Assembly (NCBI GenBank): GCA_022452035.1
Contig: JAKURV010000009.1
Span: forward strand, 14,496-72,952
Origin: Acidimicrobiales bacterium
GTDB lineage: Bacteria; Actinomycetota; Acidimicrobiia; Acidimicrobiales; MedAcidi-G1
Direction of reading: 5' to 3'
Length of the DNA stretch: 58,457 bases
Shown here: positions 713-51,957 of the stretch, in pieces
Layout of the letters: each line of letters starts with the position of its first letter
Numbering within the stretch: position 1 is the first letter of the stretch
Made by a program: the position numbers and the translations under genes
Notes under the pieces: generated by a model
What the model was told of the DNA's origin: nothing
The model's input: the letters and a program-made list of their open reading frames with translations, nothing else
Database searches by the model: none

Positions 713-2593
713 ATGGTGCTGACCGATGGTGAACCCGTGGTCGTCGAAGAGTCACCAAGAGCTGTCACGATCGCCAACCAGATCCGGACAATGTCCCTGC
801 TCCGCCCACAAAAGGTGGCGATGCGGGAGAAGGACTTTGGCATCTGGCAGGAGTACACGTGGGAGAAGACCTGGGATCTCGTCCACACGGCGGCCCATGG
901 CCTGCTGGCCCTCGGTGTCGATGTCGGCGACCGGGTCTCGATCCAGTCAGAGAACCGGCCCGAGTGGCTGATCCTGGACTTCGCCACGGTGGCTGTGCGC
1001 GGCATCACCGTCGGCTTCTACCCCACCAATCCCACGGCTGAGGTCGAGTACCTGTTGACCGACTGCGGGTCGGTACTCCACCTGGCTGAGGACCAGGAAC
1101 AGGTCGACCGGGTGCTCGAGATCGATAGTTCGAAGATCGCCGGTGTCCGAAAGATCCTCTACTGCGAACCCCGCGGTGTGCGGCAATACGACGACGAGCG
1201 GCTCCTGTCCTGGGACGACTTCCTGGCCATCGGACGGGAGCATCGGTTGGCCCATGAGCATGCCGTCGAGGACCTCATGGACCAGGCACATGTCGATGAC
1301 GTGATGACGCTCGTCTACACGTCGGGAACGACAGGCCCGCCGAAGGGAGCGATGCTCACCCACGCCAACGTGGCCTACTGCATGTCGTACTTCGACGACG
1401 CTGGCCTTCGGGGCGGACGTGCGCCGGGTAACGACGACGTCCAGGTCTGCTACCTACCGCTGTGCCACGTGGCCGAGCGCATCTTCTCCACGTTCCACGC
1501 AGCCCACATCGGCCTGACCCTCAACTTCGCTGAGTCCATCGACACCGTCCAGGAAAACCTCCGAGAGGTCCAGCCCACCCTGTTCTTCGCCGTGCCCCGG
1601 ATCTGGGAGAAACTCCACGCAGGGGTCACGATCAAGGGCGCAGACGCCAGCGCGTTCAAGCGCCTGTGGCTGAGGTTCGGGCTCTTCCTCGCCGGGGTGA
1701 TCGGTCGGGCCAAGGTGGACAACGGCGGCCTGCACACCTTCTGGAGCCGGTTGTTGGCCGCTATCGGCTACCCGCTGGTGTTCCGGGCCCTGAAGGAAAG
1801 GCTCGGTCTACGACGCTGCTGGTACGCAGGATCCGGTGCGGCCCCCATCGCCCCGGAGATCCTGGAGTTCTTCATGGGGATCGGCGTGCCGGTCTACGAA
1901 CTTTACGGAATGACTGAGAACTCGGCCATCGCCACAGCGAACTTCCCGGGACACCTGAAGTTGGGAACGGTCGGAGAGCCCGTTGGCAAGAACCGACCGG
2001 AGTTCGGCTTTCGTATCGACGAGGAAACAGGCGAGATCCAGGTCAAGCACCCGGGAGTGTTCGCCGGCTACTGGAACAAGCCCGAGCAGACGGCAGAGAC
2101 CTTTACCGATGACGGCTGGCTCATGACTGGCGACGTTGGCGAGTGGGTGGACGGCACCCATGTTCGGCTCGTGGACCGGATCAAGCACATCATCATCACC
2201 TCGGGAGGCAAGAACATCTCGCCCTCGGAGATCGAAAACAGCCTCAAGACGTCGCCCTACGTCAAGGAGGCCATGGTCATTGGGGACCGACGCAAGTTCC
2301 TGTCAGCGCTTATCGGCATCGAACTGGACACCGTCGGCGATTGGGCCCTGCGGAAAAACATCCCCTACACCACGTATCGCGACCTATCCGAAAAGCCCGA
2401 GGTCCTAGAGCTCATCCAGGGTGTCGTCAAGGAAACCAACGAGAAGTTCGCCCGGGTCGAGGAGATCAAGCGGTTCCGGATGATTCCCAAGGAACTGGAC
2501 CACGAGGACGGAGAGCTCACAGCCACCCAGAAGATCAAGAGGTCTTCTATGGAGGAAGCGTTCAACGAGCTCATCGAAGAGATTTACGCGTGA
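713..2593 (+). CDS. Long-chain acyl-CoA synthetase (AMP-binding, FadD15-like)
   Basis: This 626-residue protein of the ANL (acyl/aryl-CoA synthetase) superfamily activates a carboxylic acid with ATP, via an acyl-AMP, to its CoA thioester. The AMP-binding P-loop LVYTSGTTGPPKG starts at residue 200, the adenylate motif YGMTE is at 398-402, a GWLMTGDVG motif follows, and the C-terminal lid carries GGKNISPSEIE and ends with the usual lysine region (TATQKIKR). Length fits the long-chain group. It is the first gene of the operon and overlaps livH by four bases (GTGA). Placing a synthetase before a Liv-type transporter is common and suggests the transported compound is an acid or gives one on catabolism. 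The substrate cannot be read from the sequence. Confidence 0.9.
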   Translation: MVLTDGEPVVVEESPRAVTIANQIRTMSLLRPQKVAMREKDFGIWQEYTWEKTWDLVHTAAHGLLALGVDVGDRVSIQSENRPEWLILDFATVAVRGITVGFYPTNPTAEVEYLLTDCGSVLHLAEDQEQVDRVLEIDSSKIAGVRKILYCEPRGVRQYDDERLLSWDDFLAIGREHRLAHEHAVEDLMDQAHVDDVMTLVYTSGTTGPPKGAMLTHANVAYCMSYFDDAGLRGGRAPGNDDVQVCYLPLCHVAERIFSTFHAAHIGLTLNFAESIDTVQENLREVQPTLFFAVPRIWEKLHAGVTIKGADASAFKRLWLRFGLFLAGVIGRAKVDNGGLHTFWSRLLAAIGYPLVFRALKERLGLRRCWYAGSGAAPIAPEILEFFMGIGVPVYELYGMTENSAIATANFPGHLKLGTVGEPVGKNRPEFGFRIDEETGEIQVKHPGVFAGYWNKPEQTAETFTDDGWLMTGDVGEWVDGTHVRLVDRIKHIIITSGGKNISPSEIENSLKTSPYVKEAMVIGDRRKFLSALIGIELDTVGDWALRKNIPYTTYRDLSEKPEVLELIQGVVKETNEKFARVEEIKRFRMIPKELDHEDGELTATQKIKRSSMEEAFNELIEEIYA

Positions 2594-3564
2594 GCGGCCT
2601 CCCGCTGGTGCTGGCTGCCAACGCTTTGGACACCTTTGTCCAGACGCTCTTCAAGGCTCTCGCGCTTGGGTCGCTCTACGCGCTTCTGGCGCTCGGCTTC
2701 GTCCTCATCTACAAGGCCACCCAGACGGTCAACTTCGCTCAGGGTGCGCTAGCACTTGCTGGAACCTGGTTCCTGTCGATCATCTTCATGGACTGGGAAG
2801 TTCCCGGTCGCTGGATTGGCGGACCAGGCTGGGTCCACTGGTTCATCGCACTTTTGTTGGCTGCAACTGCCACGGCGGTACTTGGCCTGGTCATCGAGCG
2901 TCTGACTATTCGCCCGATGATTGGCGAACCCATCTTCTCGATGGCCGTCATCACCCTCGGGTTGGAAGTCGTGATTCGAGTTGTCGCCTTCGACGCTGTC
3001 AACACCACCCCGCGGGTACTTGGTATCCCATGGGGGACGGAGACGTTCAAAATCGGCGGCGCCATGGTCGCCTGGTCCTATATCGCAGCCATTGGAATGG
3101 CCGGTGTCGCCTTTCTCGGTACCTGGCGGTTCTTCAAGACCCGGACCGGTGTGGCCATGAGGGCCACCGCCTTCGATCAGGAAGCTGCGCTTGCCCAGGG
3201 CATCAACGTTGGTCGGATCTTCGCCATCGCCTGGGCGGTTGGAGCCGCCTTGGCTGCCATCTCTGGGATCTTCGCCTCGATGCCTCCCTGGGGCCCGGCT
3301 GGCTTGGCCAGTCGGGACGGTGCCTTCTTTGCTTTTCGTGCACTGCCAGCGGTGATTCTCGGCGGCCTTGACTCAGTTGTCGGGGCACTGGTCGGTGGCC
3401 TAATCATCGGATTTGCCGAAGTCTTTGCTGGCCAGTACCTCGCGAGTTATACGGGTGTCATCGGCACGGGCTACCAACAGGTGGTGCCCTACGTGGTCAT
3501 GCTCGTTGGTCTTTTGGTGAGGCCCTACGGCATGTTCGGAACAGCAGAGGTTCGCCGGGTATGA
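2590..3564 (+). CDS. livH: Branched-chain amino acid type ABC transporter permease, LivH family
   Basis: This 324-residue inner-membrane permease is one of the two transmembrane subunits of a Liv-type (HAAT) importer. After a short N-terminus it has the LivH signature (ALGSLYALLALGFVLIYKATQTVNFAQG), several hydrophobic segments, and the cytoplasmic coupling region with FDQEAALAQGINVGRIFAIAW followed by GGLDSVVGALVGGLIIGFAE. The GTG start at 2590 overlaps the stop of the preceding synthetase, and its own stop overlaps the ATG of livM (ATGA at 3561-3564), so translation is probably coupled. Longer in-frame extensions upstream lie inside the synthetase and lack the family's N-terminus. The solute may be a branched-chain amino acid, an amide or another small acid. 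Confidence 0.9.
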   Translation: MSGLPLVLAANALDTFVQTLFKALALGSLYALLALGFVLIYKATQTVNFAQGALALAGTWFLSIIFMDWEVPGRWIGGPGWVHWFIALLLAATATAVLGLVIERLTIRPMIGEPIFSMAVITLGLEVVIRVVAFDAVNTTPRVLGIPWGTETFKIGGAMVAWSYIAAIGMAGVAFLGTWRFFKTRTGVAMRATAFDQEAALAQGINVGRIFAIAWAVGAALAAISGIFASMPPWGPAGLASRDGAFFAFRALPAVILGGLDSVVGALVGGLIIGFAEVFAGQYLASYTGVIGTGYQQVVPYVVMLVGLLVRPYGMFGTAEVRRV

Positions 3565-48527: not shown

Positions 48528-48550
48528 AAACCGACGGCCTCAGTCGGTTT
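48528..48550. terminator. Bidirectional hairpin with A/T ends
   Basis: AAACCGAC (48528-48535) and GTCGGTTT (48543-48550) form a perfect eight-pair stem with a seven-base loop. The A and T runs at its ends give a short T tract in both directions, as expected between convergent genes. It overlaps the stop of the siderophore-interacting protein gene. Confidence 0.65.
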
Positions 48551-49331
48551 CAGAAACGCCGCCGCGGCCGTGCTTCCAGTAGCCCCGGACAACAGCGTGG
48601 GAGCGGGAAAGACCCCGCTCGTCGAAGAGATGACGGCGAATGCGCTGGACGGCGGCCGCCTCGCCGGCAGCCCATACCCGTGCGTCAGGAGCTATCTGTG
48701 CGCTGGTGACAGCGGCGAAGAGAGAATCGCCAGGGGTTGAGCCAGCCTTAAGTTGACACCACTGAATGGTCGCACCTGGGTGAGCGGGCAACTCGAGGCG
48801 TCCGTCAGGATGCCGGACCTCGATGAGTACCTCCACCTCGGCCTCCGGAGGCAGCGCTCGAAGAAGCATGGAGATGGCAGGAAGTGCCGACTCGTCACCT
48901 GCGAGCAGGAACGAGCGAACTGCCGGATCAATCTCGTATCCGCGCCCTGTGCCAGAGACGGCAACACGATCCCCTGCCTTGGCCGTATCTACCCACGCGG
49001 AAAGAATCCCGTTTCCGTGTCGGACAACCTCGATATCGAGTTCGAGCGGACCGGGCCTGAACGAGAGCGGGGTGAGTGTTCGGATAGTCGGCCGGCTGCC
49101 GTCCGCGAACAGGAACTCATTCCCGGCCCATGTGGGCAGGACGACCTCGGTTGGATCTCCCGGAAGCAGGACACGCACGCTGGCGGCCGGTAGCCCGGGG
49201 TCGAGCCCTTGGAGCATCGGCCCGGCGAGAGTGATCCGAACCATGTGGGGGTTACGTGGCTCAATCCGAGCCACCTCGACTATGCGAAACGGTGGGGGTT
49301 CCCGACGGGCGCGAATCGCTTTCACGACCAC
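48540..49331 (-). CDS. Siderophore-interacting protein (FAD-dependent ferric-siderophore reductase)
   Basis: This 263-residue protein has the SIP/ViuB architecture. The N-terminal FAD domain contains PHMVRITLAGPML, TIRTLTPLSFRPGPLELDIEVVRHGNGILSAWV and VSGTGRGYEID. The C-terminal NAD(P)-like domain contains FLLAGDESALPAISMLL and ends with the family signature VVRGYWKHGRGG. Members release iron from imported siderophores in the cytoplasm. No siderophore transporter is nearby. Confidence 0.9.
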   Translation of the reverse strand: MVVKAIRARREPPPFRIVEVARIEPRNPHMVRITLAGPMLQGLDPGLPAASVRVLLPGDPTEVVLPTWAGNEFLFADGSRPTIRTLTPLSFRPGPLELDIEVVRHGNGILSAWVDTAKAGDRVAVSGTGRGYEIDPAVRSFLLAGDESALPAISMLLRALPPEAEVEVLIEVRHPDGRLELPAHPGATIQWCQLKAGSTPGDSLFAAVTSAQIAPDARVWAAGEAAAVQRIRRHLFDERGLSRSHAVVRGYWKHGRGGVSETD

Positions 49332-49436: not shown

Positions 49437-49751
49437 CTAGTCGTTGCTCCAGTCACTCATCTCCCGCAACAATTCGAAGGTGTAGATGCCCGTGCTGTGA
49501 TCGTCGTTCCAGATGATGTTCAATCCCCATGCGCCATGGAGTGCGGCATCCTTGATCTGTAGTCGGGCTGGGCTGCCATGACGGGGCCAGGCTGCCTCTC
49601 CACGTTCCCGTAGTGAACGACAGGCCGCGCATGGGCAAAACAGGCGAAGTCGCATTAAATCGAGTTCCGCAACGTGCCCGTCAGCGAACGTGACAGTCAG
49701 CCCACGACTTCGTTTGACGACAACATCAACGACGTCGTGACGGTCCTCCAC
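49437..49751 (-). CDS. DUF971 family protein
   Basis: This 104-residue protein is a stand-alone DUF971 (gamma-butyrobetaine hydroxylase-like N-terminal) domain. It has LTVTFADGHVAELDLMRLRLFCPCAACRS with the CPCAxC metal site and GAWGLNIIWNDDHSTGIYTFELL. The fold binds zinc or iron and has been linked to iron-sulfur metabolism and to 2-oxoglutarate oxygenases. Its neighbour encodes an iron-release protein, consistent with an iron theme. Confidence 0.87.
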   Translation of the reverse strand: MEDRHDVVDVVVKRSRGLTVTFADGHVAELDLMRLRLFCPCAACRSLRERGEAAWPRHGSPARLQIKDAALHGAWGLNIIWNDDHSTGIYTFELLREMSDWSND

Positions 49752-49923
49752 TTAGACATCATGCCTCGGCATCGAACCCGACTTGTTAGGCCACCACCTG
49801 GCAGTAGGCGAGGCCCTCCACAGGACATGCGCACAACGGTGTCGAAATAGAGTCAAAACTGGAGTTCAACGTGTGGCATGCAGAACCGAACGAGGAATAC
49901 GTGCCCAACACTCGAAAAGTTCA

Positions 49924-50550
49924 ATGATGACCAACGTGTCCGGCGGCAGCGACGGGCGTTCCGTTGTTAAGGGGACCATCTCGTCAGCGGCATTTGCCAG
50001 CGGAGACCAGTTCGTCATCGGTTACTGGCCACAGTCACCGCTCGGGCCCTTTCACGACATCATGTGGCTCGACGCGAACGACACCAGAACCCTGATTGCC
50101 TCCTCACGAGACGCAGCCAACTTCATCACGAGTACCTATCACTTCGATCACGTCCTGGTCGCGTCGCTTCATGTTGAGAGCGAGGGAGCAACCACGACGG
50201 CTTGGACCGACAAACTTGAGATACAGATGGCCGGAGGCCGGCTACGCCCCCTTCCGCTCCGGCGCCCACTCGCCGCGACCCGCTACATCGAAGCGCCCAT
50301 CGCAAGATGGCTAATGGGTGTCGAAACCTACGGGTTGAGCCCGACCGGCGCCCGCGAGTGGTATCAGACCCGCGGTTGGCGGTGGGTAAGGACCGCCACC
50401 GCCCGGAACAAAAACGAGGACCTTGGGGAACTGGTCGAGGTCACCCGACCCATGAACGTCGGATTCTCCAACCCACCGAGGCGAGCTTCGATCGTCGCGG
50501 TCACCGTCACGATCGAACGACCCGCCGCCGGCAGCGAGTCTGGGACCTGA
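49924..50550 (+). CDS. Protein of unknown function
   Basis: This 208-residue protein begins MMTNVSGGSDGRSVVKGTIS. It then has FVIGYWPQSPLGPFHDIMWLD, a middle part SSRDAANFITSTYHFDHVLVASLHVESEG, and a C-terminal half with EAPIARWLMGVETYGLSPTGAREWYQTRGWRW and a beta-rich tail. No family, signal peptide or membrane segment is recognised. The ATG at 49924 is preferred over upstream in-frame starts because the sequence before it is low-complexity in character. It lies 18 bases before the permuted amine oxidase gene and may share its transcript. Confidence 0.6.
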   Translation: MMTNVSGGSDGRSVVKGTISSAAFASGDQFVIGYWPQSPLGPFHDIMWLDANDTRTLIASSRDAANFITSTYHFDHVLVASLHVESEGATTTAWTDKLEIQMAGGRLRPLPLRRPLAATRYIEAPIARWLMGVETYGLSPTGAREWYQTRGWRWVRTATARNKNEDLGELVEVTRPMNVGFSNPPRRASIVAVTVTIERPAAGSESGT

Positions 50551-50568: not shown

Positions 50569-51957
50569 ATGTCGAACACCCACATCCCCTACTCGCCGCT
50601 ACGCAGTCGTCGCGAGGTACTAGCCGGGCTGTCGTCTTTGGTCCTGGCAACCACGCTGGGCTGTGGACGCAGCGACCGCACCACGACCCCACCACTAACC
50701 ACGACCTCAAAGCTCCCAGCGTTATTCGACCATCGAATCACCCGCTGGGGTCAGGACCCCTGGTCCCGAGGTTCGTATTCGTACCTGGGTCCGGGAGCGT
50801 CGTCAGCTACCCGTCGGATGCTCGCCCGACCAATCGACGATCGTCTGTTCTTCGCCGGCGAGGCAACCGACACCGAGCACCCGGCAACCGTCCACGGTGC
50901 TCTCGCCTCAGGACAGCGGGCGGCTATCGAAATCCAGGAAGCCAGTAAGCCTGGTCCCATCGTGGTGATCGGTGCGGGCGTCGCCGGATTGGGAGCAGCA
51001 CGTGATTTGACCGCCGCTGGACGCGAGGTGGTAGTGCTCGAGTCACGCCAACGCATCGGGGGTCGTGTCTGGTCGGACACCGTGGGCGGTGCCCCAGTTG
51101 ACCTTGGCGGCTCCTGGCTACACGGGCTGCGGGACAACCCGCTGACCGATCTAGCGGCCTCGCTGGACATCGACCTGATCCGCACCGACTACGAAGACGC
51201 GGTGCTGTTCGATGCCGACGGCAGGCTGGTGGACTGGTCCAACCTGGACCACCTGTACGACCTGGTTGAAGACATGCTGTCGTCTAGTCGGTCCACCAAA
51301 TCGATGGCGACAGCCGTGGATGAGTTACGCCGTCAGGTCGAGGTCGAGGACCGAAGACATCTGGAGTACGTGCTGGCCTCAGAGATTGACCACTGGTTCG
51401 CGGCGGGACCCGAGGACCTCGCCTTCTCCGGAGTCCACGAAGGTGGATGGTCACGAGGCGGTGACGCCATTCCCGCTACCTCCTACCGGCCGATCATCGA
51501 GCACCTGGCGACCGGCCTCGACATCCGTCTAGGTCATCCGGTTTCTGAAGTCATTCGCACCGAAAGCGGAATCCGGGTTACTACGGAGGAGACCGAGTTC
51601 CGCGGAGGGGCCGTCGTCATAACGGTCCCATTGGGAGTTCTCCAAGCCGGGACCATCCGGTTTGACCCCGCGCTCCCAACGGTTAAGTCGACAGCCATCC
51701 AAACCCTCGGCATGGGAACCATGGACAAGGTGGTGCTCCACTTCGAGGAGCCGTTCTGGGATCCCGACGTGGACCTGATCGCCTACGCCTCATCCGAACC
51801 CGGTCGGTTCATCGAGTGGTACAACGCAATTCCGTGGACCGGCCACCCGATCCTGGTCGGGTTCAACGCCGGCAGACCGGCAGTAGAGGTCGGATCCTGG
51901 AGTGACGAACGGATATTGACCGCCTCCCTGGACGTTCTAGGCCGCCTCCGCTGGTGA
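50569..51957 (+). CDS. Circularly permuted flavin amine oxidase, Tat lipoprotein
   Basis: This 462-residue secreted FAD enzyme has MAO-family parts in swapped order. Residues 12-32 are a Tat-like, lipoprotein-type signal (SRREVLAG and C32). Residues about 50-122 then contain what is normally the C-terminal end of the family: ITRWGQDPWSRGSYSY, RLFFAGEAT (92-100) and HPATVHGALASGQRAA. Only seven or so residues later comes the normal N-terminus: IVVIGAGVAGLGAARDL (131-147), LESRQRIGGRVWS and DLGGSWLHG. The protein ends in the middle domain (EPFWDPDVD to LDVLGRLRW), exactly where normal relatives continue into TRW. So sequence order is C-part then N-part with an intact frame of family-normal length. 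Substrate is unknown. Confidence 0.85.
   Translation: MSNTHIPYSPLRSRREVLAGLSSLVLATTLGCGRSDRTTTPPLTTTSKLPALFDHRITRWGQDPWSRGSYSYLGPGASSATRRMLARPIDDRLFFAGEATDTEHPATVHGALASGQRAAIEIQEASKPGPIVVIGAGVAGLGAARDLTAAGREVVVLESRQRIGGRVWSDTVGGAPVDLGGSWLHGLRDNPLTDLAASLDIDLIRTDYEDAVLFDADGRLVDWSNLDHLYDLVEDMLSSSRSTKSMATAVDELRRQVEVEDRRHLEYVLASEIDHWFAAGPEDLAFSGVHEGGWSRGGDAIPATSYRPIIEHLATGLDIRLGHPVSEVIRTESGIRVTTEETEFRGGAVVITVPLGVLQAGTIRFDPALPTVKSTAIQTLGMGTMDKVVLHFEEPFWDPDVDLIAYASSEPGRFIEWYNAIPWTGHPILVGFNAGRPAVEVGSWSDERILTASLDVLGRLRW

Follow-up and report, generated by a model that had tools for sequence, protein, structure and literature searches.

The gene at 50569-51957 (+) of the window, by which we mean the whole stretch of 58,457 nucleotides analysed, is very probably a natural circularly permuted flavin amine oxidase of the LSD/polyamine-oxidase branch; this is the overall explanation that we favor. 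The segment with which normal relatives end stands first in this protein, and the Rossmann segment with which they begin comes after it. The permuted architecture is present in two phyla, and the finding is larger than a single unusual gene. The initial annotation had proposed a natural permutation and deemed it unusual for the family. The permutation has held up as the best reading, its order being conserved across many assemblies; the idea of one rare gene has not, for the architecture is widespread, in 48 genomes.

Layout of the gene and comparison with known oxidases

Direct reading of the sequence gives one uninterrupted frame of 462 amino acids, from ATG to TGA, its annotation being backed by the same order in relatives; frame and total length are unbroken, as originally described. 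The leader (50569-50667, +) contains SRREV at residues 13-17 and a lipobox-like TLGC ending at Cys32. The former C-terminal FAD/aromatic-cage segment, residues 47-125 (50707-50943, +), delimited by the LSD1 and LSD2 C-termini and by the structure model, bears TRW (58-60), GSYSY (68-72), FFAGEAT (94-100) and PATVHGA (105-111), then SG and the last helix. A linker of residues 126-129 (50944-50955, +), lying between the helix 111-125 and the strand 131-134 of the model, connects the two old termini. The former N-terminal part, residues 130-462 (50956-51954, +), was assigned by alignment of the model with maize polyamine oxidase and comprises the Rossmann FAD segment and the substrate domain; within it are GAGVAG, the dinucleotide-binding motif read and aligned at residues 135-140 (50971-50988, +), His185 of WLHG (51121-51123, +) and Lys387 (51727-51729, +), the latter placed by the LSD1 alignment. 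Both the GxGxxG Rossmann motif and the GEAT..TVHGA FAD-contact motifs are thus present, with the C-terminal motifs of the MAO family (residues 58-115 in the initial annotation) in frame and ahead of GAGVAG, as had been noted at the outset.

The Pfam profile PF01593 recognizes the protein with 217.9 bits against a curated cut-off of 19.8. Its best stretch aligns residues 138-460 with profile positions 1-364 of 443, so that the last 80 or so profile positions are absent from the C-terminus of the protein; the chain indeed stops where normal relatives run on into TRW. Since the canonical order of the family (Rossmann first, TRW..TVHGA last) is not the one found, we class the protein as a permuted homologue rather than a canonical PF01593 member. 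Both parts come from one parent family, are swapped and share one frame, which is what circular permutation entails. In a phmmer search of PDB, LSD1 (9dbp chain) was matched in three stretches in swapped order: residues 47-122 on its C-terminus 567-654 (i-E 5.2e-11), residues 109-223 on 88-201 (3e-14) and residues 306-457 on 400-560 (2.9e-16), a sequence match far beyond chance. A profile of 26 permuted proteins aligned with LSD2 in PDB over 335-695 (profile 127-464) and 697-775 (profile 45-123); with one stretch ending at 695 and the other beginning at 697, the cut falls at LSD2 chain residue 696 with nearly no sequence lost. None of the best 60 of the 113 PDB rows found with this profile has a best stretch spanning the junction, all of them starting at position 126 or later. 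The chains themselves likewise lose almost nothing at the cut. One permuted protein, L032, ends in ...LRTIYGP and the window protein in ...LDVLGRLRW, at a point where normal relatives continue ...LRAMFGDVPEP and the normal-order protein L059 reads ...LRAMFGDVPEPVDALSTRWGSDPW; after its leader, L032 restarts with stretches such as VPEPDGWVVTRW.

An AlphaFold2 model built on a shallow alignment of 11 rows has a mean pLDDT of 74.4 and a pTM of 0.78. In it, a short loop connects helix 111-125 to the Rossmann strand 131-134, the blocks of residues 111-140 having mean pLDDT values of 89, 90 and 94. The moved segment has weaker stretches (61-80, mean 59; 101-110, mean 51), and pLDDT drops below 50 at residues 1-42, 104-108 and 274-297. 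The top Foldseek matches were LSD2, LSD1 and maize polyamine oxidase, and VIA gave Z scores of 26.3, 26.1 and 24.2 for these three and 22.8 for murine acetylpolyamine oxidase. Residues 129-462 of the model lie on residues 5-378 of the 459 of the maize enzyme (1b37), which leaves the C-terminal part of that enzyme for residues 47-122; residues 128-462 lie on 5-405 of 5lae. The comparison with LSD1 and polyamine oxidase folds called for at the outset therefore comes out positive for residues from about 123 or 129 to 462, parts of 47-122 being of low confidence. We infer that the moved segment occupies its usual place at the FAD-contact site. Alternatively, the protein could be a domain-swapped dimer whose N-terminal segments each complete the active site of the neighboring molecule instead of their own. 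In favor of this are the short join between the old termini (residues 126-129, from helix to strand in the model) and the domain swapping reported for a helix of another flavoprotein, BorF (PMC13327496). The single-chain model, with its pTM of 0.78 and its joining helix and strand at pLDDT of about 89-94, speaks against such a dimer even if the moved segment is partly of low confidence, and we regard it as improbable.

In the permuted oxidase as we picture it, the old C-terminus, that is the last helix of the FAD domain, would be joined by the short linker to the old N-terminus, the first Rossmann strand, and the new termini would open in the loop between the last helix of the substrate domain (...LRxMFG in normal relatives) and the TRW strand. 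The chain would then refold into the usual two-domain enzyme, with FAD held between the Rossmann and the GEAT/TVHGA segments. The closest solved folds are the amine-oxidase domains of LSD2 and LSD1 (4fwe, 4gu0, 2z5u). LSD1 shares with the window protein TRW..DPW, GSYSY, FFAGE.T, PATVHGA and an aligned active-site lysine; unlike the window protein, however, LSD1 and LSD2 have the normal order and are not Tat lipoproteins. They also carry SWIRM and other extra domains and have a nuclear role. The N1-acetylpolyamine, spermine and plant polyamine oxidases (5lae, 7oxl, 1b37) share the fold of the model over residues 128-462 (5lae) or 129-462 (1b37) and are matched in both halves by the permuted profile, in two stretches, but they too are of normal order. 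L059-L061, normal-order oxidases of the same bacterial order, are 34-40% identical to the window protein in the N-part and 58-59% in the C-part; in them, Rossmann segment and substrate domain precede VPxP..TRW..TVHGA. These proteins have a twin-Arg, lipobox-like leader as well and, by reading, an Arg at the position of Lys387.

Distribution and integrity of the permuted order

A scan of species genomes gave full or near full-length matches at 92-93% (L004, L005) and 65-66% identity (L006, L007). Within the genus and family the permuted order occurs at identities of at least 49%; it recurs in Pseudomonadota and the phylum's other families, where the N-part is about 28-42% identical. With the order checked in the ORFs, it was found in 22 of 61 relatives (11/17 in the genus, 9/20 in the rest of the family, 2/24 in other families of the order), including one gene in two pieces (G010) and two cut by contig ends (G002, G026). 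In G002 a single contig holds the C-part and the first 20 or so N-part residues, and in G026 a single contig runs from the end of the C-part into the N-part; G022 and G028, with fragments only, were left out of the count. Six of the 17 genus genomes gave no permuted match, and many relatives are without the gene.

Beyond these relatives, a 144-aa junction query found uninterrupted matches in 22 of 395 genomes of the class and 11 of 396 genomes of the phylum, all permuted in the ORF. Normal-order genes whose junction match contained a stop (G122 and G196 in the class, G523 in the phylum) or ran only over positions of about 27-139 (G159 in the class, G651 in the phylum) were left out. A junction profile detected the permuted order in 3 of 299 genomes of Pseudomonadota, the Hydrogenophaga phylum, and gave no uninterrupted match in 146 genomes of Myxococcota, 46 of which had partial matches; junction matches thus do not, as a rule, arise in normal-order genes. 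Together, by hand count, these make 48 genome handles, three from Pseudomonadota and the rest from 13 family groups of the window's phylum. Three phyla were sampled (the window's own, Pseudomonadota and Myxococcota), and all these counts are lower bounds set by samples and thresholds. Among plasmids, 28 records matched, none covering more than 80% of the junction. The search for homologues with the same order has in this way succeeded at every level from near relatives through class and phylum to Pseudomonadota. Some copies are damaged: the permuted gene of G010 (L030) is split over two overlapping frames, those of G243 (L047) and G750 (L069) are broken by an in-frame stop, and a fragment in G022 (contig C12) carries three TGA stops.

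Both halves are under purifying selection. Five pairs of relatives gave dN/dS values of 0.04-0.11 for the C-part and 0.13-0.20 for the N-part, with higher values, 0.26-0.77, for the leader. For the short junction stretch, four pairs returned a value, ranging over 0.08-0.46, with the 0.46 coming from the 24 residues, hence few sites, of the L006-L007 pair. Conservation of the permuted order with low dN/dS discounts the possibility that assembly or binning exchanged the two parts of a normal gene. It is true that the window comes from a draft genome of 65 contigs and that contig ends fall within the permuted gene in G002 and G026. Against this, many genomes have the junction within a single unbroken frame, at identities that begin at 93% and fall to about 28-42% for the N-part, and two genomes with the permuted order, G640 and G669, consist each of one contig and are listed as 100% complete. 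We give an artefact practically no credence: many further assemblies carry this order unbroken, and the refuting outcome envisaged at the start, an assembly error, thereby fails. A frameshift was rejected for the single uninterrupted frame and the order common to relatives.

A tandem helper gene supplying the C-terminal part, the other arrangement envisaged at the start, was rejected as well, since none turned up in the genome search or downstream. At E <= 0.001, the search of the window genome for a second C-terminal-part gene returned only two weak partial matches, on contig C6, and the next genes downstream of the oxidase are methyltransferases. Upstream, a 255-aa frame without a Pfam match (49783-50550, +) ends 18 bases ahead of the oxidase gene, and only near relatives keep it, at 88-92% conservation; genes for a siderophore-interacting protein and a GBBH-like N-terminal domain protein adjoin (48540-49331, - and 49437-49751, -). 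Because the neighbors of the window gene are conserved in near relatives only and the frames flanking L016 differ (an APH-type kinase and HemD), we name no operon partner for the oxidase.

Catalytic residues, leader and candidate function

Across the 26 rows of alignment A2 the GAG..G columns do not vary, and the FAD-contact motifs are kept in these divergent rows. Lys387 lines up with the LSD1 lysine in the phmmer alignment, and we take it to be the counterpart of the active-site K661 of LSD1. Lys occupies this column in 38/44 permuted and 62/70 normal rows; the six permuted exceptions are L070-L073 of family f123 (V, A, T, T), L033 (H) and L048 (R), and with the loss of this lysine permuted members may differ in chemistry; L070-L073 perhaps have a different chemistry or a non-oxidase role. 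His185 of WLHG, presumably the counterpart of the WIHG histidine of acetylpolyamine and spermine oxidases, falls in a column that has His in 33/44 permuted and 52/70 normal rows. The window protein thus has both polyamine-oxidase markers, the active-site Lys and the WxHG His.

The six rows without the lysine, together with the broken copies in G010, G243 and G750, are what one might cite in favor of a decaying or non-catalytic relic of a normal oxidase. Yet the window gene and 44 of the 49 permuted ORFs are unbroken by a length filter (the other five being contig-cut or broken), dN/dS is well under 1 in relatives of the window gene, and the FAD-contact motifs have been retained over the 26 divergent rows. 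A relic is accordingly very unlikely.

The leader announced in the initial annotation is present up to Cys32 and looks of the Tat/lipoprotein type: by reading and simple patterns rather than a trained predictor, SRREV..TLGC combines a twin arginine with a lipobox Cys. Most permuted members start with such a twin-Arg, lipobox-like leader. By the same simple patterns, 42 of 44 permuted rows have a twin Arg ahead of the C-part and 32 of 44 a lipobox; the former figure includes leaderless rows, in which the twin Arg does not act as a signal. No leader is seen in L058, L095 and L096; that of L094 has the twin Arg but does not match the lipobox pattern. The window protein would be exported in folded form by the Tat system and then anchored as a lipoprotein through Cys32; with this anchoring, the permutation would place the membrane anchor at the hinge of the substrate domain and not at the Rossmann strand.

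Two permuted proteins, L056 (G406) and L057 (G273), have a GNAT acetyltransferase domain (PF00583) ahead of the oxidase, a domain order suggestive of a possible one-chain enzyme that acetylates and then oxidizes. SSAT and acetylpolyamine oxidase follow this logic, acetylation and then oxidation. The GNAT fusion fits it, which makes a polyamine the leading guess for the substrate; the analogy is suggestive. The permuted enzyme may oxidize an amine, probably a polyamine, outside the cytoplasm with the help of FAD, Lys387 and O2. FAD binding, activity, substrate, export and a benefit of the permutation are all put forward here as inferences.

Origin of the permutation and its significance

The permuted gene may go back to a duplication and fusion with subsequent loss of the outer halves, as in the model that PMC3320104 describes. 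The permuted oxidases fit this duplication-and-truncation model. An HMM search that counted C-parts, not doubled N-parts, found a second C-part in none of 119 ORFs having both parts (70 normal and 49 permuted, the latter counting one gene twice, as L056 and L086 of differing length). Tandem neighbors of normal genes in G783 and G523, considered as intermediates, proved to be different paralogues. At L054 a distant normal-order paralogue lies directly upstream of a permuted gene, their stop-to-stop frames (691-2058 and 2025-3251, -) overlapping by 34 bases; the origin is not thereby demonstrated.

Trees of the parts set in common order were poorly resolved. Nine order changes are needed in a careful tree of 40 permuted and 18 normal rows (58 in all), which still allows one origin. 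In AU tests, a single permuted clade had p values of 0.308 (34 permuted, 14 normal rows) and 0.245 (34 permuted, 20 normal), L054_N and L012_N as long branches and near-copies being left out of both and L109_N of the second. In the largest tree (35 permuted, 33 normal; normal rows with an N-part score below 230 and rows more than 75% alike left out), it was weakly rejected at p 0.027. Without L056-L058 and L094-L096 the value was 0.229 (29 permuted rows), and without L095 and L096 only, 0.103 (33 permuted rows), both subsets having been picked after the tree was seen. Partial ORFs were left out of the rows throughout (L030, L047, L069; in the later set L009, L030, L031, L047, L069). Several origins of the permutation, or reversals, are suggested. 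It is conceivable, though we lean against it, that the permutation arose repeatedly at the same hinge, or was undone in some lineages, because an N-terminal Tat-lipoprotein anchor or a GNAT partner enzyme can then be attached on the substrate side.

Circular permutation and the flavin amine oxidase family are both already known; we did not meet their combination in the literature searched. A natural circular permutation has been proposed in another flavin-binding domain, as cited in PMC13327496 and PMC2395249. Among the matches listed in a search of the open-access PMC literature, we found no natural permuted flavin oxidase of the MAO/PAO/LSD family. The other flavin-binding domain, with its proposed permutation, has a different fold, a beta-barrel without a GxGxxG Rossmann domain.

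The MAO/PAO/LSD family comprises heavily studied drug targets and biocatalysts, and its permuted members, found in two phyla, are divergent and for the most part unbroken. An annotation that takes one best stretch sees in such proteins a shortened oxidase with an odd leader, and they are therefore easily misread. As the FAD domain is built from both ends of the chain, the permutation tests a change of connectivity with the active site kept; and since normal and permuted enzymes occur in the same bacterial orders, the folding, anchoring and evolution of the permutation are directly testable.
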